The translations under genes were made by a program, and so were the position numbers. The notes below the pieces were generated by a model. That model searched no databases and was not told the DNA's origin. It was given only the letters and a program-made list of their open reading frames with translations. Source: a virus. From it: DNA of 20,123 bases. Shown here one piece after another: positions 487 to 16,325 of the stretch; within the stretch, counting starts at the first letter, position 1, and each line of letters begins with the position of its first letter. The stretch covers positions 1 through 20,123 of the IMG/VR virus record IMGVR_UViG_3300034095_000587; one strand, written 5' to 3'.

Positions 487-505
487 ATTTGAAAGGGTTA
501 AACAA

Positions 506-628
506 ATGGAAAGTAATGAATGTCCAAAGTGCAAAACAGAAATGCACACCAATTCCATTATTGGAAAAAGGCCTTGGAAAAAATATCAAGAATGTCCAAA
601 GTGTAATTTCAAAACGGCGGCCAAGTAA
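506..628 (+). CDS. Small zinc-ribbon protein (40 aa)
   Basis: This 40-residue protein has two CPKC knuckles, near residues 6-9 and 30-33, the usual four-cysteine arrangement of a zinc ribbon. The rest is basic (several Lys, plus Arg-Pro-Trp). The start ATG follows a GAAAGGG Shine-Dalgarno by eight bases. The stop overlaps the ATG of the next gene by one base (TAATG), showing translational coupling. Small zinc ribbons of this kind are common in phage early regions; a nucleic-acid or protein contact role is plausible but cannot be specified. A longer open frame at 429-659 overlaps it in another frame and is judged a shadow. Confidence 0.65.
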   Translation: MESNECPKCKTEMHTNSIIGKRPWKKYQECPKCNFKTAAK

Positions 629-801
629 TGGAACAACACACACGCGACGCACTCAATAAAGAAATGATGGAAGATTTCTCAAATGTAATTGCAAAGCATT
701 TTCCACATTTTGATTACAGAAACATTGAAGAACAAACTTGGTCTTTTCTTGTTTTATTTACTGAAGAGTTAATCCACCAACTAGGAAAGGAAACAAAATA
801 A
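628..801 (+). CDS. Hypothetical small acidic protein (57 aa)
   Basis: I recognise no family. The protein is His- and acid-rich in the first half (MEQHTRDAL..., with KHFPHF near residues 23-28) and probably helical at the end (FLVLFTEELIHQL). It starts on the last base of the preceding stop codon and ends on the first base of the next start codon, so it sits in a tight coupled array with genes at 506 and 801. That packing, rather than similarity, is the main evidence that it is real. Confidence 0.55.
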   Translation: MEQHTRDALNKEMMEDFSNVIAKHFPHFDYRNIEEQTWSFLVLFTEELIHQLGKETK

Positions 802-995
802 TGAAAATAGCTGAAATCAAAGTAAAAAGTATTGCGCCATATGGAAAAGGTTTTCAGGTCAATGCTTTCATTGACGGCGTAGAAAGTGAAATGACCTTTT
901 ACGGATACACCAAGAAAGACGCTATCCAAGAAGCAAAAAAGCGCATTGAAAAGGATGGACGCTTACCTCACGAACCATACAAGGGAGGCAACTAA
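801..995 (+). CDS. Hypothetical small protein (64 aa)
   Basis: A beta-rich N-terminal half (MKIAEIKVKSI...GFQVNAFIDG) is followed by a helix (KKDAIQEAKKRIEKDG). The pattern of two or three strands then an amphipathic helix resembles many small phage proteins and integrase arm-binding-like folds, but no specific family is recognised. AGGAAAGGA upstream is a good Shine-Dalgarno. The stop TAATG overlaps the next start by one base. Confidence 0.6.
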   Translation: MKIAEIKVKSIAPYGKGFQVNAFIDGVESEMTFYGYTKKDAIQEAKKRIEKDGRLPHEPYKGGN

Positions 996-1186
996 TGACA
1001 ACACTTACAAACTACAAAGGCCGTGTTTGGACTTGCGACGAGCACCACAAAGAGATTGAAGCCCTAATCATTACAGGACTAACAAAAGAGGCCAATGCTT
1101 TTGTTAATTCACTCAACCCAAAGAAGGGCAACTCCTGCAAAGAGTGCGCCCGCCTTTATGAAGACACCCCACCCTGCAACCGCTAG
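995..1186 (+). CDS. Hypothetical small Cys/His-rich protein (63 aa)
   Basis: The protein contains C14, H17/H18, C48, C51 and C61, so a small zinc-binding module (CDEHH ... CKEC) is possible. No family is recognised. It follows the GGAGG Shine-Dalgarno carried at the end of the previous gene. Its TAG stop codon is unusual in that its final G is also the first base of the hammerhead ribozyme at 1186, so translation termination and the ribozyme core are physically linked on the mRNA. Confidence 0.6.
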   Translation: MTTLTNYKGRVWTCDEHHKEIEALIITGLTKEANAFVNSLNPKKGNSCKECARLYEDTPPCNR

Positions 1187-1235
1187 GCCGAAACCCCTTC
1201 GGGGGTCGTGGCGTAATTCGTCACCTGATGAGGCC
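1186..1235 (+). ncRNA. Type II hammerhead ribozyme, copy 1
   Basis: All parts of a hammerhead are present in type II order (stem II open). GGCC 1186-1189 pairs with GGCC 1232-1235 (stem II). GAA 1190-1192 is the G12-A13-A14 core. A1193 plus CCCC pairs with GGGG plus U1206 (stem III) across a UUCG tetraloop. GUC (1205-1207) is the cleavage triplet. GTGGCG 1208-1213 pairs with CGTCAC 1219-1224 (stem I, one G-U) across a 5-nt loop. CTGATGA 1225-1231 is the conserved C3-A9 core. Predicted cleavage lies between 1207 and 1208. It sits between two small genes, starting on the last base of the upstream stop codon. A second copy lies at 1478. Activity is inferred from the complete core. Confidence 0.92.
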
Positions 1236-1240
1236 ATCAG
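1225..1240 (+). promoter_or_regulatory. Alternative hairpin that would sequester the ribozyme core
   Basis: CTGATG (1225-1230), part of the hammerhead core, is exactly complementary to CATCAG (1235-1240) with a 4-nt AGGC loop. This 6-bp hairpin cannot form at the same time as the active ribozyme fold. It lies just upstream of the GAAAGGG Shine-Dalgarno of the next gene. The second ribozyme has only a 3-bp equivalent. Confidence 0.4.
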
Positions 1241-1259
1241 ATACTGAAAGGGTTAAGAA

Positions 1260-1478
1260 ATGATCATCGCAATTTGTGACGGAACTGCCGAAACAATCTA
1301 TGCAACTGCACCAACAGAAGATGAAGCCAAGGCAGCACTATGGGAATTAGTCCATCAGTTCCTCTATAAATCCAATGCGGTCGAAACTGCCTATTATTCA
1401 GCGACAGAGTTAGAAGATTACTTTGGATGCGTCGTTATAAACACAGAGGAAAACCCTGCAGGATTTCTTCGAGGATAG
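1260..1478 (+). CDS. Hypothetical protein (72 aa) lying between two hammerhead ribozymes
   Basis: The protein begins MIIAICDGTAETIYATAPTEDEAKAALWELVHQFL, a beta-hairpin followed by a helix, and ends with an acidic segment and FLRG. I recognise no family. The start follows a GAAAGGGTTAAGAA Shine-Dalgarno region. The gene is bracketed by hammerhead ribozymes whose predicted cleavage sites (1207/1208 and 1501/1502) lie outside both start and stop, so its whole reading frame and Shine-Dalgarno would be released as one monocistronic RNA. The TAG stop again shares its G with the downstream ribozyme. Confidence 0.7.
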   Translation: MIIAICDGTAETIYATAPTEDEAKAALWELVHQFLYKSNAVETAYYSATELEDYFGCVVINTEENPAGFLRG

Positions 1479-1529
1479 GCCGAAACTCCCGAAAGGGAGT
1501 CCAACTGTGAGGCAGTTGCTGACGAGGCC
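1478..1529 (+). ncRNA. Type II hammerhead ribozyme, copy 2
   Basis: Same architecture as the copy at 1186 but with different stems. GGCC 1478-1481 pairs with GGCC 1526-1529 (stem II). GAA 1482-1484. ACTCCC 1485-1490 pairs with GGGAGT 1495-1500 across a GAAA tetraloop (stem III). GUC 1499-1501 is the cleavage triplet. CAACTG 1502-1507 pairs with CAGTTG 1513-1518 across a 5-nt loop (stem I). CTGACGA 1519-1525 is the core, differing only at the non-conserved position 7. Predicted cleavage lies between 1501 and 1502. Stem I and III sequences differ from copy 1 while pairing is kept, which is covariation-type support that structure is under selection. Confidence 0.93.
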
Positions 1530-1601
1530 AGATCTTTTGAAGCTTTGTTTGAAGATAGGGGAGACTCCCCCATTGATCGAAACTAGAGAAAAGGGTAAAG
1601 A
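1530..1601 (+). promoter_or_regulatory. Leader between ribozyme 2 and the next gene
   Basis: This untranslated stretch holds a short hairpin (GGGGA 1559-1563 with TCCCC, 3-nt loop) and an AAAAGGG Shine-Dalgarno about 6 bases before the ATG at 1602. A GATCGAAAC near 1574 resembles the 5' part of another hammerhead, but no matching core or stem I follows it. After cleavage at 1501 the downstream mRNA would begin with stem I of ribozyme 2 and then this leader. Confidence 0.4.
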
Positions 1602-1820
1602 ATGTTAATCAAAGTTAATGCACAGAATGACACGAATGGAAATCCTCGACGAGGTTGGATCCGCTACGACTTAGACGGCCGCTTTCTAGGTTTTTATCCT
1701 GAAGGCTACGACGACGGGGGCGAAACCCTGAGAAAACTTAAGGCTGAAGAGGGCGAGGGTTACCCGTCCATCAACATCACCCCGAAAGAATACAAGCGAC
1801 TTAAAGGGCTGGTGGCATAA
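1602..1820 (+). CDS. Hypothetical protein (72 aa)
   Basis: The protein starts MLIKVNAQNDTNGNPRRGWI and has a strand-rich first half with GRFLGFYPEGYDDG, then a helix (ETLRKLKAEEGEG) and a basic end (KEYKRLKGLVA). No family is recognised. It is the first gene downstream of the second hammerhead, so its mRNA 5' end would be created by that cleavage. The TAA stop is directly followed by the ATG of the next gene. Confidence 0.65.
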   Translation: MLIKVNAQNDTNGNPRRGWIRYDLDGRFLGFYPEGYDDGGETLRKLKAEEGEGYPSINITPKEYKRLKGLVA

Positions 1821-1991
1821 ATGAGAAGCCTGACCCCTCGCGGGTGGCTGGTGCTGGTTGTTGTTGGTCTGTTGGCCTTGTGGCTGCTTTGGAAGCTTTC
1901 CGCCTGCCTTTGGTGGGTGGGTGTGGGAGAGGAAGAGGCCGACTTCTTGGGTTGGTGTTGGGGAACAATGGCCGAATGCGTGAAGCTTTAG
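1821..1991 (+). CDS. Small single-pass membrane protein (56 aa)
   Basis: The N-terminus is MRSLTPRGWLVLVVVGLLAL, a positively charged start followed by one strongly hydrophobic helix (about residues 9-26), then a Trp/Cys-rich, acidic tail (ADFLGWCWGTMAECVKL). Short proteins beginning with this type of Arg-rich, Gly-Trp-Leu-Val membrane anchor are common in actinobacteriophages; their function is not known. It abuts the preceding stop with no gap. The DNA is unusually rich in G and T compared with its neighbours, reflecting the Leu/Val/Trp content. Confidence 0.65.
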   Translation: MRSLTPRGWLVLVVVGLLALWLLWKLSACLWWVGVGEEEADFLGWCWGTMAECVKL

Positions 1992-2096
1992 AGGCGAACT
2001 ATCGCCCACCAGGGAAAGCGGTGGGCGGTGGTCTGTTGCTAAATGGCGATAGAGGGAGAGGGCGAGAGCCGTCACCAATAAGAAAGGGTGGAAGTT
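1992..2096 (+). promoter_or_regulatory. Structured intergenic RNA with two mutually exclusive stems
   Basis: CGCCCACC (2003-2010) and GGTGGGCG (2020-2027) form an uninterrupted 8-bp hairpin with a 9-nt loop. CTATCGCC (1999-2006) is also exactly complementary to GGCGATAG (2045-2052), sharing the bases CGCC, so the two 8-bp stems cannot coexist. There is no U-run, so it is not a simple terminator. The Shine-Dalgarno GAAAGGGTGG for the next gene lies about 30 bases downstream. It fits no ribozyme or riboswitch class I could confirm. Confidence 0.4.
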
Positions 2097-2342
2097 ATGA
2101 AAGTAAGCGAGTTAATTAGTCAATTAGGCAGTTATGACCCTGATCAAGAGTTATTAGTAGCCTATTGGGATAAAGAGTTTGTCGAGACATCTTTCGATAG
2201 TGATGAAAGTGTAAAGATAACTGATGAGTTATGGTCAGAGGCTATTGCTAAGGCTAGTAAAGCTGAATACTGGCAGAGTTGCGGTTCAGAGGAGATATGC
2301 GATCAAGTGAGGCAGTTATTAAAAGAGGGAGAGGTAGCATAA
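2097..2342 (+). CDS. Hypothetical protein, short MKVSELISQL-type phage protein (81 aa)
   Basis: The N-terminus MKVSELISQLGSYDPDQELLVAYWD matches a pattern often seen in phage and prophage proteins: a helix ending in a DPD turn, then a strand. Function is unknown. ATG 2097 is preferred over GTG 2088 because it follows GAAAGGGTGG at the normal distance. The protein is acidic and ends in EGEVA, encoded by the recurrent junction sequence that also supplies the Shine-Dalgarno of the next gene. The stop TAATG overlaps that start by one base. Confidence 0.65.
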   Translation: MKVSELISQLGSYDPDQELLVAYWDKEFVETSFDSDESVKITDELWSEAIAKASKAEYWQSCGSEEICDQVRQLLKEGEVA

Positions 2343-2485
2343 TGCTAAAGGATACCGTAATAAATGAACTGGCAACTGTGCGACAAGAGATAGAGAGCGA
2401 TAACGACCAAGAGAGAGCCTTGCTAGAGGGTTGGGAGAAGGCTTTACTGTGGGTATTACGAAAGATAGAGAGTGAGGTAGCGTAA
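2342..2485 (+). CDS. Hypothetical helical protein (47 aa)
   Basis: The start at 2342 is chosen because it overlaps the previous stop (TAATG) and is preceded by GAGAGGTAG. The protein (MLKDTVINELATVRQEIESD...) is predicted to be almost entirely helical, possibly a short coiled coil, and ends ESEVA. No family is recognised. It sits in a series of short coupled genes. Confidence 0.55.
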   Translation: MLKDTVINELATVRQEIESDNDQERALLEGWEKALLWVLRKIESEVA

Positions 2486-2727
2486 TGAAAGTAAAATGCT
2501 TAAAGCAAGAGATAGATAGTTGGAGTCGGATAATAGAGATAGAGGTAGAGGGCAACACTTACAGAGCTATATTTGGGTGGGATATTTGGGATGGATATGA
2601 ATTGAAGTTCCAAGATGCCAATGAAAAAGATATTGAGTGGCCTAAGTGGGCAGATGATTACGACAACCCTATAGATCTATATGGTGAGCTTGAGCATATG
2701 TCTGATGAGAGCCAGGTAACCAAATGA
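2485..2727 (+). CDS. Hypothetical acidic protein (80 aa)
   Basis: The protein is acidic and aromatic-rich (GWDIWDGYELKF, EWPKWADDYDNP), with a beta-rich N-terminal part. No family is recognised. It begins on the final A of the previous stop codon after GAGGTAGCG and overlaps the next gene by four bases (ATGA). Confidence 0.6.
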   Translation: MKVKCLKQEIDSWSRIIEIEVEGNTYRAIFGWDIWDGYELKFQDANEKDIEWPKWADDYDNPIDLYGELEHMSDESQVTK

Positions 2728-2855
2728 ACAAGTGCAAAGGGTGTGGGATGTCAATGTGGTTAGAGGGCAAGATAGATGACAACATCCCACTATGTCACGC
2801 CTGTTATCAGGATAATGAACTACGCATTAAATACACAGAGGGAGAGGTAGCGTAA
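2724..2855 (+). CDS. Small zinc-ribbon protein (43 aa)
   Basis: CKGC (residues 4-7) and CHAC (24-27) form a compact four-cysteine zinc ribbon in a 43-residue protein that ends EGEVA. The ATG overlaps the preceding TGA (ATGA). Such minimal ribbons are frequent in phage early operons. The substrate or partner cannot be inferred. Confidence 0.6.
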   Translation: MNKCKGCGMSMWLEGKIDDNIPLCHACYQDNELRIKYTEGEVA

Positions 2856-3058
2856 TGGACACAATGGACATACTACGCGCCCTAAGTACGGAGGCGAGAG
2901 AGTGTGAGCTATGCGGATCTGGCAGCTGGCGCATACTACACGCGGGAGATGAGAGTAATTGCGAGTGTGAAGGAGAGTGCTTGCGCGTATGCGATAACCC
3001 GTTGCTAGAGGACGGGTGTGACGGAGTGGCAATTCTAATTGAGAGAAAGGGAAAGTAA
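2855..3058 (+). CDS. Cysteine-rich small protein (67 aa)
   Basis: Cysteines cluster as CELC (residues 17-20), CEC/C (36-42), C46 and C54, enough for one or two zinc sites. The protein is acidic with a short N-terminal helix (MDTMDILRALSTEA). No family is recognised. It starts in the recurrent GAGGGAGAGGTAGCGTAATG junction. Confidence 0.55.
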   Translation: MDTMDILRALSTEARECELCGSGSWRILHAGDESNCECEGECLRVCDNPLLEDGCDGVAILIERKGK

Positions 3059-3223
3059 ATGAAAGATAAATGGCTAGTAACACTAGAGATAGATACCTAT
3101 GACGGCGACCCTAAAGATTGGGATTGGGAGAAGCTATCTACGGGATCAGATGTAATCAAGATAATCAGTAGCGACTTCAAGGGTCGAGTACATCCAACAA
3201 GCGAGGGAGAGAGTAATGAATGA
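3059..3223 (+). CDS. Hypothetical small protein (54 aa)
   Basis: The protein begins MKDKWLVTLEIDTYDGDPKDWDWEKL: an edge strand, then an acidic Trp-rich loop and a helix-strand. No family is recognised. Its ATG directly follows the previous stop with GAAAGGGAAAG as Shine-Dalgarno, and its end overlaps the next gene by eight bases. Confidence 0.55.
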   Translation: MKDKWLVTLEIDTYDGDPKDWDWEKLSTGSDVIKIISSDFKGRVHPTSEGESNE

Positions 3224-3374
3224 AGAGTACCTACGGGCTAAGGCTAACCTGTGCCTTAACCAAGCTGAGATAGATCTAAAGCAAGAGGAGATAGCCAGGG
3301 CTATTAAGAATCTAGAGCGTGCCAATAGTGCGCTATCGCGCTTGTTCGGATTAGAGGGAGAGGCTAATGACTAA
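3216..3374 (+). CDS. Hypothetical coiled-coil-like protein (52 aa)
   Basis: The sequence is almost all helix-forming, with heptad-like spacing of Leu/Ile (AEIDLKQEEIARAIKNLERA). It starts inside the previous gene after GAGGGAGAGAG and overlaps the next gene by eight bases. No family is recognised. Confidence 0.5.
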   Translation: MNEEYLRAKANLCLNQAEIDLKQEEIARAIKNLERANSALSRLFGLEGEAND

Positions 3375-3495
3375 GCGAGTGATAACTGCTGAGGTAGATC
3401 AGCAATGGTTCGATATGTTAGGTCAGCTTACCCGTCACCAAGACGGGTTCGTATGGATTAAAGTGCAGGAGAAGGGGGAGAAAGAGAGTGAGTAA
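3367..3495 (+). CDS. Hypothetical small protein (42 aa)
   Basis: A 42-residue protein (MTKRVITAEVDQQWFDML...) with a short strand, a helix and a charged tail. No family is recognised. The start overlaps the preceding gene and uses the GAGGGAGAG Shine-Dalgarno within it. The end overlaps the next start by eight bases. Confidence 0.5.
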   Translation: MTKRVITAEVDQQWFDMLGQLTRHQDGFVWIKVQEKGEKESE

Positions 3496-3730
3496 TATCT
3501 ACACCATACACCCGAAGAAGTCTTCATTGATCCTACTTTATGAGGTAGTGGATGAGGACGGCAGAGCTGAATGGGGCGGCCATAGTGCTGAGCATTGTAT
3601 GCAATGGCTTAGCCTTGCACCTACCGGCTCTCGCGTACTGGTATCTGGGTGGGAGAGCGATGAAGAGGACGCTCACTTAGTAGGCCAGAGCCTCGACATC
3701 ACCGACATCATCAAGGCGGCAAGTCTATGA
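3488..3730 (+). CDS. Hypothetical protein, GTG start (80 aa)
   Basis: GTG 3488 is the start that keeps the overlap pattern and follows GGGGGAGAAAGA. The protein is strand-rich (SSLILLYEVVDEDG, SRVLVSGWES) with a central helix HSAEHCMQWL, and ends DITDIIKAASL. No family is recognised. It overlaps the next gene by four bases (ATGA). Confidence 0.55.
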   Translation: MSNIYTIHPKKSSLILLYEVVDEDGRAEWGGHSAEHCMQWLSLAPTGSRVLVSGWESDEEDAHLVGQSLDITDIIKAASL

Positions 3731-4099: not shown

Positions 4100-4370
4100 G
4101 AACAAGGCACTTATCATTAGTTACCTCAACGCACTCGGTTACAACAACAGTCAGGTCAAATGTGCTATCACCTTATGGACCCGTGAGAGCAGGCTTGACC
4201 ACTTGGCAGACAACCCAAGATCGACAGCTTACGGAATTGCTCAGCTCCTTAGAGAGCGAAGTAGCGACCCTAGTATCCAAATCCTGCACGGTATTAGATA
4301 CGTGCAACACCGTTTCTCAGGAAGTTTCTGCCGCGCTCTCCAGCATAGCAATAGACGAGGCTGGTACTAA
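3954..4370 (+). CDS. Secreted lytic transglycosylase-like protein (138 aa)
   Basis: Residues 1-22 (MSKKVKSGLVLTALLTLVLV...) form a typical signal peptide or membrane anchor. From about residue 53 a lysozyme-like SLT domain follows, with ITLWTRES (putative catalytic E78), ADNPRSTAYGIAQ (85-97) and a C-terminal HGIRYVQHRF ... HSNRRGWY block, the order seen in soluble lytic transglycosylases. It would cleave the glycan strands of peptidoglycan outside the membrane. ATG 3954 follows GAGAAGG and gives the signal peptide; upstream frame to 3783 has no such support. C70 and C126 could form a disulfide. It lies far from the lysis cassette at 13097-14415, so it may serve infection or superinfection functions instead of final lysis. 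Confidence 0.7.
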   Translation: MSKKVKSGLVLTALLTLVLVLIPERTGHPHLEIPQMQARTKATMEEKRENKALIISYLNALGYNNSQVKCAITLWTRESRLDHLADNPRSTAYGIAQLLRERSSDPSIQILHGIRYVQHRFSGSFCRALQHSNRRGWY

Positions 4371-5179
4371 TGAGTGAGATGACGGGAGTATCTTTATTCG
4401 CAGGTGTCGGAGGATTCGACCTTGCTATGCAACGACAAGGCGTAAGAGTTGTAGCCTCTGTTGAGATAGATAAGAATTGCAACCAGGTATTGGCTAAACA
4501 CTTTCCTGATGCAACCCAATTTAACGATGTAACTACGGTGAAAGGAAGTGATTTAATTGGAGTCGGATTTAATTCAAGCAGAGGTATTATTGCGGGAGGA
4601 TTTCCCTGCCAAGACGTCAGCGTTGCTGGCAAAAGAGCTGGTCTTGCTGGCGCACGAAGCGGGTTATTCTGGGAAGCTGCAAGAATTGTGGAAGAAGCGC
4701 AGAGCGAGTACTTCATCCTCGAAAACGTACCTGGTCTGCTATCCAGTAACAAAGGAGCAGATTTTGGAGTCGTCATCGGGACGATGGCCGACCTCGGGTA
4801 TTCTGTCGGCTGGCGTGTGCTTGATGCTCAATACTTCGGAGTACCCCAGCGACGCAAAAGAGTCTTCATCGTTGGGCGACGTTCTTCTGACCGAGGCATT
4901 GCCGAAATACTTTTTAAGTCAGAGGGCTTGCGAAGGGATACTTCGCAGATCATCCAAGCGAGGCAAGACACTACCACCAGCACTGCAAGAAGCTTTGGTC
5001 AATCAAGTTTCGCAGGGTACACAGAAGGACCAGCAACCATAACAGCTACGTCGTATAAAAGACCTGAAGATAATGTTGTGGTTTATGCAGACCCAGTAGG
5101 AACACTTCAGGCACGAGACTATAAGGGAGTAGGCAACCAGTATGTTGCAGAGAACAAACTTGTGGTTCACAAAGGGTAG
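4370..5179 (+). CDS. Cytosine-C5 DNA methyltransferase, N-terminal part
   Basis: Ordered motifs of the Dcm/HhaI family are visible: motif I FAGVGGF (10-16, SAM binding), motif IV GGFPCQ with catalytic C80, motif VI ENVPG (118-122) and motif VIII QRRKR (160-164). The frame stops at 5179 after the target-recognition region begins, without motifs IX and X, which lie in the next frame (5142-5660). Intact members run about 400 residues, close to the sum of both parts. Likely role: methylating phage DNA to evade restriction or to mark it. It overlaps the stop of the transglycosylase gene by one base (TAATG). Confidence 0.88.
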   Translation: MSEMTGVSLFAGVGGFDLAMQRQGVRVVASVEIDKNCNQVLAKHFPDATQFNDVTTVKGSDLIGVGFNSSRGIIAGGFPCQDVSVAGKRAGLAGARSGLFWEAARIVEEAQSEYFILENVPGLLSSNKGADFGVVIGTMADLGYSVGWRVLDAQYFGVPQRRKRVFIVGRRSSDRGIAEILFKSEGLRRDTSQIIQARQDTTTSTARSFGQSSFAGYTEGPATITATSYKRPEDNVVVYADPVGTLQARDYKGVGNQYVAENKLVVHKG

Positions 5180-5660
5180 GCGAGCACAGAATGAAGAAGA
5201 CTATGAGACTTGGATTGAGGGGGGGGTAATGCCGACCTTGAATGCTTTTGATAATGGAGATATTAGAACTACTGTTATTATCTTTTATGGTAATAGGGTA
5301 GATGATGTGCGCTTACAAGGCGGAGTAATCAATACACTGCAAGCTAGAATGGGGACAGGTGGGAACAATATGCCTATGCTAATGCGTATGCGTGAAGGTA
5401 AACCAGGCGGAGGTAAAGGTCCATTGATTAGTGATGACAAGTCTTTGACTATTGCAACTGCTAACGATCAAACACTTCTTAATGAAGGAACAGTACGCCG
5501 CTTAACACCAGTAGAGTGTGAAAGATTACAGGGTTTCCCTGATGATTGGACTGCTGGACAGTCAGACTCTGCTCGCTATAAGCAAATGGGTAATGCAGTT
5601 GCAGTACCTGTAGTAGAGTGGCTCATACAAAACATAGTAGATATTGCTGAGGTTTCTTAA
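5142..5660 (+). CDS. Cytosine-C5 DNA methyltransferase, C-terminal part (+1 frame)
   Basis: Residues from about 119 carry motif IX (RRLTPVECERLQGFPDDW) and 148-153 motif X (QMGNAV), completing the enzyme begun at 4370. The target-recognition region lies before them, including PTLNAFDNGD and a second NTLQARMG element. The frame is +1 relative to the first part. The junction AAA GGG TAG G (about 5171-5180) reads through in this frame as KGRRAQN, giving a continuous family-like protein if one base is skipped. ATG 5142 has no clear Shine-Dalgarno and its first ten residues do not look like the family, so independent initiation is less likely. Alternatives: programmed +1 frameshift, sequencing error, or a broken gene. 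Confidence 0.8.
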   Translation: MLQRTNLWFTKGRRAQNEEDYETWIEGGVMPTLNAFDNGDIRTTVIIFYGNRVDDVRLQGGVINTLQARMGTGGNNMPMLMRMREGKPGGGKGPLISDDKSLTIATANDQTLLNEGTVRRLTPVECERLQGFPDDWTAGQSDSARYKQMGNAVAVPVVEWLIQNIVDIAEVS

Positions 5661-5893: not shown

Positions 5894-6273
5894 AACTGCA
5901 CTGCCTCCTCAATAGGTAGATAACCTACTAACTTCTCAACCTTTTCAGCTCTATCAAACTCAGTAGTGGCAGGCATTTGGTGACTAAACCATACTGGCTC
6001 TGGTAAATCCATTAAGTCAAAGGAGTAGATACCAAGCGGAGTAGAGTTGATGTAGTAGGGAACAAGGTCACGCTCTGCAGCTTGTGTGATGAGCTTGCGA
6101 TACTTCATCTCTTCAATAAGCAAGGTGTCATAGTGCCTAGCCCTGCACTTTAACTCTATGTAGTGACCTGCTTGCCTAGAGATGCAGTCATAGGAATCAT
6201 AGATACCCTCAGACTTTACTAGGTCAGGGTATAAACCCTCGCGCAAGAAAGTAAATAACAACTCTTCATTCAT
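5890..6273 (-). CDS. PD-(D/E)XK nuclease-like protein (127 aa)
   Basis: YDSYDC ... GHYIELKCR supplies the core of a PD-(D/E)XK nuclease: D26 or D29, then E40-L-K42 on the next strand, followed by a helix (LLIEEMKYRKLI) and a strand region YYINST. The length suits a minimal nuclease domain of the VRR/resolvase type. It probably processes branched or damaged DNA during phage replication. The last four bases overlap the FmdB-like gene and the start overlaps the sigma-like gene by four bases. Confidence 0.6.
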   Translation of the reverse strand: MNEELLFTFLREGLYPDLVKSEGIYDSYDCISRQAGHYIELKCRARHYDTLLIEEMKYRKLITQAAERDLVPYYINSTPLGIYSFDLMDLPEPVWFSHQMPATTEFDRAEKVEKLVGYLPIEEAVQL

Positions 6274-6902
6274 TGCCAGGGTGAAATCCCGCCAAGATTA
6301 TCCTGCAACCTACGCAGTGACTTATCACATCTGCGATCTGCAGTAGAGATAGCGCACTCTAATACCTGTGCTATCTGTTGCAGAGTAAAGCCCTCGTGGT
6401 GGCGCATACGCAAGAGGCTCTGGTCATCTTGTTCTAGTTGAAGAAAGCCCTTCTTGATATCTATAAGGTTAGCCAGTAGGTTGCCACCTTCTGCCGGAGA
6501 TGATGAACCTTTAGGTTGCCCGTCGTTAATCATCTCTTGTGCCTGCTCTAATACTGTGCCATCTATGATAGATGCAATAACAAAGGGTAGTAGCTGACCC
6601 AGAGTTGCTGACTCATAGTAAGCCTCATCGTTAGTCTGATAGCCAGATTTAGATGCCTTCTCCTTACGTGCATAGCGCTCAGCTACACGTCTCATCTGCC
6701 ACGCTATGCGTTGCTCGTTGTGCCTGCGTCGCTCTTCGATTGGCTCCATTAAATCTTCAGTATGATCTGCAGCCCTTGTCATAGCCCAAGCCATTAGCTC
6801 CTGCTTGATGTCATCCTTCTCAACGTGCTTGTTATACCTACGATGGATAGTGTTAGCCACGCTAGGCACGAGGTCATATATTACTGGATGTAGTTCACTC
6901 AC
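6270..6902 (-). CDS. Sigma-70-like / helix-turn-helix protein (210 aa)
   Basis: The C-terminal part (about 165-205) has the layout of sigma region 4: LLRMRHHEGFTLQQIAQVLECAIS, then TADRRCDKSLRRLQ, i.e. a helix-turn-helix with a recognition-type helix. The N-terminal half contains a region-2-like DIKQELMAWAM stretch (31-41), followed by a charged helical linker. Similar diverged sigma-like proteins are frequent in actinobacteriophages and may direct RNA polymerase to late promoters, but the core-binding motif is weak, so a plain DNA-binding role remains possible. It overlaps both neighbours by a few bases. Confidence 0.6.
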   Translation of the reverse strand: MSELHPVIYDLVPSVANTIHRRYNKHVEKDDIKQELMAWAMTRAADHTEDLMEPIEERRRHNEQRIAWQMRRVAERYARKEKASKSGYQTNDEAYYESATLGQLLPFVIASIIDGTVLEQAQEMINDGQPKGSSSPAEGGNLLANLIDIKKGFLQLEQDDQSLLRMRHHEGFTLQQIAQVLECAISTADRRCDKSLRRLQDNLGGISPWQ

Positions 6903-14255: not shown

Positions 14256-14415
14256 CTTGTCGCTCCAATCTGTTTACCGAATCTTTAACACTTGACCCAC
14301 CATTAGGCTTGAGTTCATTAAGGTAATGCTTAACCATCCAGCGCACTGCGCCAGCAAAGCCACCGATGATTGTCATTACTGCAACAACTACTGTTGCGTA
14401 GTCTTGTGCTTGCAT
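14212..14415 (-). CDS. Small membrane protein with a coiled-coil tail (67 aa)
   Basis: One hydrophobic segment (about 6-25, TVVVAVMTIIGGFAGAVRW), then a Gly-Ser linker and a helix with heptad-like spacing (VNRLERQVEEIYRILL). It could be a lysis regulator or a virion-assembly membrane factor. It overlaps the tail-type gene upstream by one base and the lipoprotein gene by 44 bases, both in different frames. Confidence 0.6.
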   Translation of the reverse strand: MQAQDYATVVVAVMTIIGGFAGAVRWMVKHYLNELKPNGGSSVKDSVNRLERQVEEIYRILLARNNS

Positions 14416-16325
14416 TATACCGTCCTGATTGTGACTAGTAGTAACCCACCAAAACCGGTGAATCGTTTATCTGATGGTGTGTTATTTCTAAAATCCATTT
14501 CTTCAATAATGCCAAGGTATGACTCACCAGTTCTAAAGTCTTGAATCTGGATGGTGTCTCCAGCATTTTCTATTAACTCTAGTTGTGACATACGATCATA
14601 GGCTGCGCCTTCAAAGCCAACCTCTACTCCGAAGTGGTCTGTCTCGTGGTCAAAGCAAGAGAGTGGATACTGGATAAGTCTTTGGCGTGGTGTTGCAGGC
14701 AGGGAACGTATCTGATAACCAGTAAAGAGTGGTCCCTTAGTCACATCAGTTGTTGAGCGAGATAGAGTAAATTGGAATCCAAGATATTCTTGGGCAGTTT
14801 GTGGATAACTGATATTGATTTGAGGCACTGCAGAGCCTTGTGAAAAGTTACCGATAGTAAAGAAGTTATCTAATGAATCAACGGATTGGATTAAGACACC
14901 GCCATCGGTGGTATCTACACGAGCCTGCATTAACTTAAATATCTTTGTCTCTAACGTGTTGTAGCGGATGTAACCAGTACGCAAGTAACCACTTGCTACT
15001 AGGCTGGTGGTTGATTCAGCCCAGGTATTATTACCATTGGTAAAGGCAGCTCTATCTGAGTTGCCAAAGAAGGCAACCTGGGATGCAGTGGTAGTAGTAC
15101 CAGTTGCTATAAGGTCCCAAGCCCAAGGAAAGAAAAGGCTATTTGTTAGAACAGTAGTAGATAAATCCACGCGAACTAGCCCTGCCGTACCATCTACAAG
15201 GGTTGCAATGTAGGCATAGCTATCTCTAAAAGCAATAGCGTTGCAGGGTGCATCTCTAAAGAGCAATGGCCCATACTGGATATCTCCAGTTGCATCAGAG
15301 ATACCTACTCTAAAACCTAGGCTAGTTGCAAGGATTGCATAGGCACCAAGGTATACATCAAAATCATTGATGCGCTCACCTTGTGGCATATCAATAATAA
15401 CTGTAGGTGTTTCTAGTGTAGGAAAACCTAAAGTGTTAGGAGTTGTAGCATCTAAGGCAATCTTAAAGACAGATGATGATGTACCGTTTGGATCATAACC
15501 TGATACATAGATAGCCTGTGGTCCTTCAGAGATACTAGACCATACCCAACTAGCATTAGGATGAGTAAATAAAGCAGTAGGTAGGGCAGCAGAAGCAGTA
15601 GCATTAGGGTCAAGTTCATATAATACGTTTTCTTTAGCCAAGATAAGACGCTGTTTAACATAGCGGATAGTGGCTCTAGTAGTAGATGCTGCTGTATAAA
15701 TCTCAGCATCTGCTGGAGATGCACCAACTGAACCTTTGTGGACTCTAGTGCCATTGATAAAGTAATAGTTAGAACCATCAGTTGTAAGGCTAAAGATAGT
15801 CGATGCTGTTCCTGCTTGGGTGATAGGTGTTACTGTGCCACCAGTTGTAATCTTCTTGAGCGCTGTGCCATCTGTGACAAAGATGCAGTCATTGGTGCCA
15901 TCATTGACACCAATTAACTGAGCAGGTGCAGCACCAGCATAGAAGCTGGCTGTGTCATTGAGCAGGGTAGCCTGGCCTCTAGTAAAGACATCTAAGCCTT
16001 TAGACTCTGTGTACTGGAAGCGTAGCGACTCTTCTTGCTGTGGTTCAAAGAACTTAATACCAGCGCCAAGGTGAAAGGATGATTGGCTTCGTAGCCACCA
16101 ACCAGTCAGGGTCTGTTCTCCAGCCTCACGTGTCTGGTCAATCTGTTGCTTACGATACTGAGCCGTTACACGGCGATATGGTGCATCATCAGAGTTAAAA
16201 AGAAAGAACGGTAAACCAGCAACAGCGACATCGTAGGCTTCGCCGGTAGCTGCATAAGTGGCAGAGCCAGAAGGATTGGATAGTACATACGGTATTCCCT
16301 CGGTAATATCATCGCCGTATGGCAT
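14415..16325 (-). CDS. Large phage structural-type protein, probable tail component (636 aa)
   Basis: The protein is strand-rich with repeated short blocks of the kind YIRYNTLETKIFKLMQAR and YIATLVDGTAGLVRVDLS, reminiscent of beta-propeller or repeat-built tail proteins, and few charged residues. It starts MPYGDDITEGIPYVLSNPSG after an AAGGAGAA Shine-Dalgarno. Position between the tail-fibre genes and the lysis cassette supports a tail tip, baseplate or appendage role. No enzymatic motif is seen. No family is identified with certainty. Confidence 0.6.
   Translation of the reverse strand: MPYGDDITEGIPYVLSNPSGSATYAATGEAYDVAVAGLPFFLFNSDDAPYRRVTAQYRKQQIDQTREAGEQTLTGWWLRSQSSFHLGAGIKFFEPQQEESLRFQYTESKGLDVFTRGQATLLNDTASFYAGAAPAQLIGVNDGTNDCIFVTDGTALKKITTGGTVTPITQAGTASTIFSLTTDGSNYYFINGTRVHKGSVGASPADAEIYTAASTTRATIRYVKQRLILAKENVLYELDPNATASAALPTALFTHPNASWVWSSISEGPQAIYVSGYDPNGTSSSVFKIALDATTPNTLGFPTLETPTVIIDMPQGERINDFDVYLGAYAILATSLGFRVGISDATGDIQYGPLLFRDAPCNAIAFRDSYAYIATLVDGTAGLVRVDLSTTVLTNSLFFPWAWDLIATGTTTTASQVAFFGNSDRAAFTNGNNTWAESTTSLVASGYLRTGYIRYNTLETKIFKLMQARVDTTDGGVLIQSVDSLDNFFTIGNFSQGSAVPQINISYPQTAQEYLGFQFTLSRSTTDVTKGPLFTGYQIRSLPATPRQRLIQYPLSCFDHETDHFGVEVGFEGAAYDRMSQLELIENAGDTIQIQDFRTGESYLGIIEEMDFRNNTPSDKRFTGFGGLLLVTIRTV

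Follow-up and report, generated by a model that had tools for sequence, protein, structure and literature searches.

Genomic context of the hammerhead pair

The window, meaning the whole stretch of DNA that was analysed, is a 20,123-base virus record with a G+C content of 45.5%. Its plus strand opens with small ORFs (about 500–3,700), followed by a DNA methyltransferase, and its minus strand holds replication, integrase, and tail-fibre genes. A 636-aa minus-strand protein (14415–16325) shares 35–39% identity over 96–99% of its length with Streptomyces phage proteins and is one of many closely related proteins in IMG/VR; the virus is therefore actinophage-like. Elsewhere in the window, positions 6270–6902 of the minus strand encode a sigma-factor-like phage protein (phrog_354, phrog_3512), and the C5 DNA methyltransferase is encoded in two plus-strand ORFs of different frame (4370–5179 and 5142–5660), which a +1 shift at GGG-UAG joins cleanly. 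In L413, L369, L384, L386, L389, L393, and L409 (same offset), as well as in L365 and L373 (other offset), the N- and C-terminal portions of the enzyme are likewise out of frame with each other, which points to a conserved two-part enzyme or a programmed frameshift and away from a sequencing error.

Among the small plus-strand genes, an upstream ORF of 63 aa (995–1186, without a PHROG match) and a second ORF of 72 aa (1260–1478, with a weak match to phrog_5531, E = 1.8e-5) are each followed by a candidate self-cleaving ribozyme, here designated HHR1 and HHR2, respectively. Both ORFs end in UAG (1184–1186 and 1476–1478), the final G of which also belongs to stem II of the adjoining ribozyme. 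The start codon of the bracketed 72-aa ORF is preceded by a leader on the plus strand (1241–1259) that carries a Shine-Dalgarno-like GAAAGGG at 1246–1252. Downstream of HHR2, a 72-nt leader (1530–1601) containing its own GGGGAGACUCCCC hairpin extends to the start codon of another plus-strand ORF of 72 aa (1602–1820). The early-operon setting proposed for this pair in a preliminary description of the locus is plausible, given the small plus-strand genes upstream of the methyltransferase gene; promoter and terminator scans returned nothing relevant to the hammerhead question.

Two complete type II hammerhead ribozymes at gene borders

A strict structural descriptor and a covariance model both identified complete type II hammerhead ribozymes on the plus strand at 1186–1235 (HHR1, predicted cut 1207/1208) and 1478–1529 (HHR2, predicted cut 1501/1502). 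In HHR1, the two strands of stem II (GGCC 1186–1189 and GGCC 1232–1235) enclose GAAA (1190–1193), stem III CCCC-UUCG-GGGG (1194–1205), UC (1206–1207), stem I GUGGCG-UAAUU-CGUCAC (1208–1224), and the core CUGAUGA (1225–1231, with G8 at 1230). HHR2 has the same order of parts: stem II GGCC (1478–1481 and 1526–1529), GAAA (1482–1485), stem III CUCCC-GAAA-GGGAG (1486–1499), UC (1500–1501), stem I CAACUG-UGAGG-CAGUUG (1502–1518), and the core CUGACGA (1519–1525, with G8 at 1524). Both sites thus possess the type II architecture specified in the descriptor (C3UGANGA9, G12A13A14, the A15.1-U16.1 pair, and cleavage after H17), and the descriptor and the alignment to the covariance model show stems I and III closed by loops and stem II open. 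The full core, the GGCC stem II, the differing sequences of stems I and III, and the UUCG and GAAA loops had all been noted previously, and each is present at the coordinates given here; the reported distance of 292 bases is that from start to start. The overlap with the stop codons and the core-complementary tail of HHR1, described below, were missed in that earlier description. Cleavage at both predicted sites would release a 294-nt RNA (1208–1501, plus strand) holding the bracketed ORF.

HHR1 and HHR2 are the only matches to the strict descriptor on either strand of the window, and the same pattern read backwards as a control has none. A covariance model (R1), built from 36 IMG/VR examples with the window excluded from training, scored HHR1 at 60.1 bits (E = 6e-15) and HHR2 at 69.8 bits (E = 1e-17), with no third match within the window. 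Its training alignment contains two-sided changes at 10 of the 12 base pairs of stems I and III; these rows were chosen for pairing, so that the percentage paired is no evidence in itself, but the diversity of pair types does carry information. With the Rfam type II model (RF02276), HHR1 scored 17.9 bits and HHR2 26.2 bits (E = 7e-4) against a curated cut-off of 37, and a search of the window at the Rfam gathering threshold returned no match. The significant covariance-model score anticipated for the pair was therefore obtained with the model built from phage relatives and not at the Rfam cut-off. The 37-bit value is a threshold rather than a defining property of type II hammerheads: members of unmistakable arrays elsewhere also fall below it, with three of the eight hammerheads in L009 reaching it. 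The Rfam type II model overlooks many phage members. On the sequence evidence, HHR1 and HHR2 were confirmed as genuine type II hammerheads, and the original class call, with its intact core, GUC triplet, and covarying stems, was right, as was the judgement that a chance origin is very unlikely.

Related hammerheads in IMG/VR

Several hundred related hammerheads were found in IMG/VR, up to eight per locus and mostly abutting an upstream stop codon. An open pattern that fixes only the core, a GGCC stem II, and the cleavage triplet, without demanding pairing in stems I and III, matched at least 120 IMG/VR stretches. Among the matches listed, 107 of 134 passed the strict test for stems I and III, most of the others having bulged stems, and the reversed-sequence control for stem pairing gave 0. 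Placement was assessed for 188 distinct sites with sufficient flank, 181 of which follow a same-strand ORF (≥40 codons) with its stop no more than 60 nt away. The stop codon falls at −6 to 0 relative to stem II at 77% of sites, as compared with 4.7% of random positions. The commonest offset is −2, at which the G of UAG is common to GGCC, exactly as at HHR1 and HHR2; the median distance from stem II to the next start codon is 29 nt.

Single hammerheads predominate (224 of 275 locus strands), and at least two are carried on one strand at 51 fetched loci, where the median spacing is 458 nt. The sites of an array nearly always share a strand. Arrays of four to eight type II hammerheads, about one gene apart, were observed in L009, L524, L136, L452, L427, and L510, the largest having eight sites (L009 and L524) and L136 having six. 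Hammerheads flanking single genes or forming clusters in prophages had already been described by Perreault et al. in 2011 (PMC3088659), and a pair bracketing one gene is accordingly less distinctive than had been proposed; the window pair is another case of a known arrangement. Neither the hammerhead region of the window nor three array loci had a blastn match among cultured phages. In a scan of genome contigs, the stem test was passed by only 11 of 117 unique pattern matches, so that host organisms could not be read off.

The bracketed gene was also considered as a conserved hammerhead partner and rejected, as the only relative of its protein found by the scan (L413, 60% identity) lacks a hammerhead on either side of its gene. 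The L413 gene has the same coding end as that of the window, and divergence begins at the stop codon. Close phage relatives carry a hammerhead in 5 of 32 records, one each; in L535 it follows the counterpart of another gene of the window (a homologue of ORF 628–801), so that the elements either change place relative to genes or are gained and lost.

A core-complementary tail that covaries with the ribozyme core

The HHR1 sequence CUGAUGAGGCCAUCAG contains a perfect inverted repeat in which CUGAUG can pair with CAUCAG, the latter consisting of the last base of stem II and five bases beyond it. The resulting anti-core (core-trapping) hairpin, CUGAUG-AGGC-CAUCAG (1225–1240, plus strand), pairs core positions 1225–1230 with 1235–1240 and places N7 (U1229) opposite A1236. 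This hairpin and the active hammerhead are mutually exclusive, since both use the core and part of stem II. HHR2 lacks such a tail, its product having only CUG/CAG at this position. In unbiased scans, the frequency of the tail depended on the stem II type: 53 of 131 GGCC sites (~40%), 14 of 133 GGUC sites (11%), and 104 of 115 GACC sites (90%).

Catalysis fixes CUGA and G8, which leaves N7 as the sole core position able to covary. One GGCC scan left both the N7 and the tail letters free, and its raw matches, taken without the stem test, comprised 101 C-G and 27 U-A combinations of N7 and tail base and 0 of any other; such raw counts overstate independence because of kinship, and the contig clusters with a tail in the GGCC set number 12 C-G and 4 U-A. 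N7 and the tail are able to pair in 103 of 104 cases, as compared with 59 ± 4 after permutation of N7. Compensatory double changes were found between the close homologues L319 and L036, L280 and L072, L098 and L089, and L273 and L122, and these within-family changes are independent of the cluster counts. A wider search yielded one C-A mismatch, and the tally for stem II of the GGUC/GACC type was U-A 10, C-G 2, A-U 1, and U-G 1. A core-trapping tail is very rare where N7 is a purine: in the first GGCC scans, no site with A or G at N7 had a matching tail in the tight position, and a single clear A-U example (L456) came to light later, so that purines contribute little to the covariation.

In the GACC/GGUC type of stem II, the stem itself supplies GUC, and a tail of AG lets CUGAC pair with GUCAG in a tighter register. 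This AG is present at 98 of 115 GACC/GGUC sites, as compared with 10 of 137 sites of the reverse type, and within the GACC/GGUC type it accompanies N7 = C in 64 of 66 cases and N7 = U in 36 of 48. The hammerhead of L599 has the same sequence as HHR1 from stem III to the end of stem I, combined with a GACC stem II, a U-to-C change at N7, and the AG tail; its sequence indicates that the capacity to form the hairpin is kept through the change of register.

Loop I is nearly always GUNNNGC in the phage subtype represented in the IMG/VR set. Tertiary contacts that link loop I to the stem II side are frequent, though not universal, among type II hammerheads. A pseudoknot between loop I and the tail was considered as the cause of tail conservation and discarded, as Watson-Crick complementarity, the only kind of pairing counted, did not exceed that of permuted pairs across 156 sites. 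No account of a core-complementary tail was found in the open-access literature, to which the search was confined, and the co-evolving, core-pairing tail is provisionally regarded as a new feature.

Predicted energies and product folds

For uncut HHR1, nearest-neighbour calculations gave −23.5 kcal/mol for the anti-core fold and −22.8 kcal/mol for the hammerhead (difference −0.7), and the anti-core fold was likewise favoured in the uncut tail class as a whole (median difference −1.9 kcal/mol); these energies describe secondary structure alone, the tertiary energy of the active core not being counted. The slight preference for the anti-core fold before cleavage suggests that it could also inhibit cleavage. 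In the predicted folds of the 3′ cleavage products, the anti-core hairpin appears in 99% of the tail class. The HHR1 3′ product is predicted to fold into stem I followed without a gap by the anti-core hairpin, and then by an open, unstructured leader with GAAAGGG and the AUG at 1260.

Proposed mechanism and alternatives

The motifs, their covariation, their placement at gene borders, and the predicted product fold are established above; from them we infer cleavage in the window phage, an order of events, and protection of the mRNA. Both hammerheads would cut a polycistronic phage transcript at gene borders, giving shorter mRNAs. Each upstream piece would end in the stem III hairpin and UC with a 2′,3′-cyclic phosphate, and each downstream piece would begin with a 5′-OH within the hairpin of stem I. 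Once the strand is cut, nothing but the four stem II pairs would hold the upstream piece, and the anti-core hairpin should win. At HHR1, the tail CAUCAG would then pair with the core strand CUGAUG, and, because this pairing excludes both the hammerhead core and stem II, the upstream fragment would be released and the reaction made irreversible. With the anti-core hairpin immediately next to stem I, the 5′ end created by the cut would consist of a blunt pair of stacked hairpins, which should resist 5′-end-dependent decay while leaving the Shine-Dalgarno region free. We assign a probability of roughly 0.6 to this reading, in which active hammerheads split the phage transcript and an HHR1-type tail traps the core after cleavage and seals the 5′ end of the downstream mRNA.

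Post-cleavage trapping is favoured by the expected dominance of the hairpin once the strand is cut and by the predicted fold of the 3′ product. The main rival, which we consider unlikely, is that the hairpin acts as a gate before cleavage: ribosomes at the stop codon overlapping stem II would cover the 5′ half while the tail holds the core, and the cut would follow only once upstream translation stops or transcription pauses. The nearly equal energies of the two folds, the transcription of the hairpin partner right after stem II, and the contact or overlap of the stop codon with stem II at most sites all agree with such a gate; however, densely packed phage genomes equally predict this abutment, most sites have the same placement without the hairpin, and no ligand or factor is known. 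Absence of the hairpin from HHR2 and from most GGCC- and GGUC-type relatives indicates that it is not needed for processing, and both hammerheads might simply process mRNA, the tail complementarity being a functionless by-product of descent. Perreault et al. proposed such a role, the processing of long transcripts into single-gene mRNAs (PMC3088659), and HHR2 does without a tail, but the double changes between near-identical homologues and the conservation of pairing in two registers are difficult to account for unless pairing is under selection, making this account improbable.

Excision of the 294-nt RNA by the pair, followed by circularisation as hammerhead halves reassemble around the ORF, is very improbable. 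The 3′ half of HHR1 and the 5′ half of HHR2 have GGCC in common and can form a hybrid hammerhead, and the Rfam type III model aligns weakly across both halves (16.8 bits); against this, the anti-core hairpin makes religation at HHR1 less favourable, single hammerheads far outnumber pairs, and Perreault et al. sought circular or spliced products and saw none (PMC3088659). Scores under the Rfam curated cut-off speak for chance or decayed motifs without activity, an explanation made barely credible by the R1 E values, intact cores, paired stems, and conserved placement. A viroid-like or retrozyme circular RNA, in which tandemly repeated type I or III hammerheads release a circle of unit length, was rejected, as the sites are type II, their stems differ, and their spacing corresponds to a gene rather than a repeat unit.

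Comparison with known self-cleaving systems

The window ribozymes share the core, stem order, open stem II, cleavage triplet, and gene-flanking clusters with the bacterial and (pro)phage type II hammerheads described previously (RF02276; PMC3088659). According to Perreault et al., three arrays from other prophage regions cleave in vitro, and an Agrobacterium triple array cleaves in E. coli. The phage subtype differs from those published forms in its 4-bp stem II, its GUNNNGC loop I, and its sub-threshold Rfam score. In the published pseudoknot type, loop I pairs with the 3′ tail, whereas the phage subtype has no Watson-Crick pseudoknot above the permuted background. A core-complementary tail, as found here, is not mentioned in those passages of Perreault et al. 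(PMC3088659) that were searched.

The glmS ribozyme-riboswitch resembles the present elements in self-cleaving within a bacterial leader and leaving a 5′-OH on the downstream mRNA, an end that is predicted here. It is, however, another ribozyme with another fold and depends on a metabolite, and once it has cut, its 3′ product is degraded by RNase J1 (PMC7125110), in contrast to the double hairpin proposed here, which would seal the end. The glmS precedent makes the direction of any expression effect uncertain in the present case; that RNase J1 can attack a ribozyme-made 3′ product would, on our analysis, explain why such an end should be sealed. Viroid and satellite hammerheads (types I and III) have the catalytic core in common with HHR1 and HHR2, but are of another permutation and serve in processing and circularisation of rolling-circle RNA. 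In these RNAs, the hammerhead is known to compete with alternative folds.

Implications for phage hammerheads

A reason for the presence of hammerheads between phage genes has been sought since 2011. The results point, as a probable conclusion, to a large phage type II class with a co-evolving off-switch tail, acting either as a ratchet that seals the RNA after the cut or as a gate before it that is coupled to upstream translation. The covarying tail and the exact placement at the stop codon provide a specific, mutable handle on why phages keep hammerheads: single or paired changes outside the fixed core predict changed product release, religation, 5′-end stability, or translation coupling. 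The HHR1 and HHR2 junctions may behave differently within the operon, and the occurrence of one hammerhead with the hairpin and one without it in a single operon constitutes a natural paired test. If the proposed mechanism is true, HHR1 would represent a natural self-limiting ribozyme, useful in designs that divide an operon into stable mRNAs.
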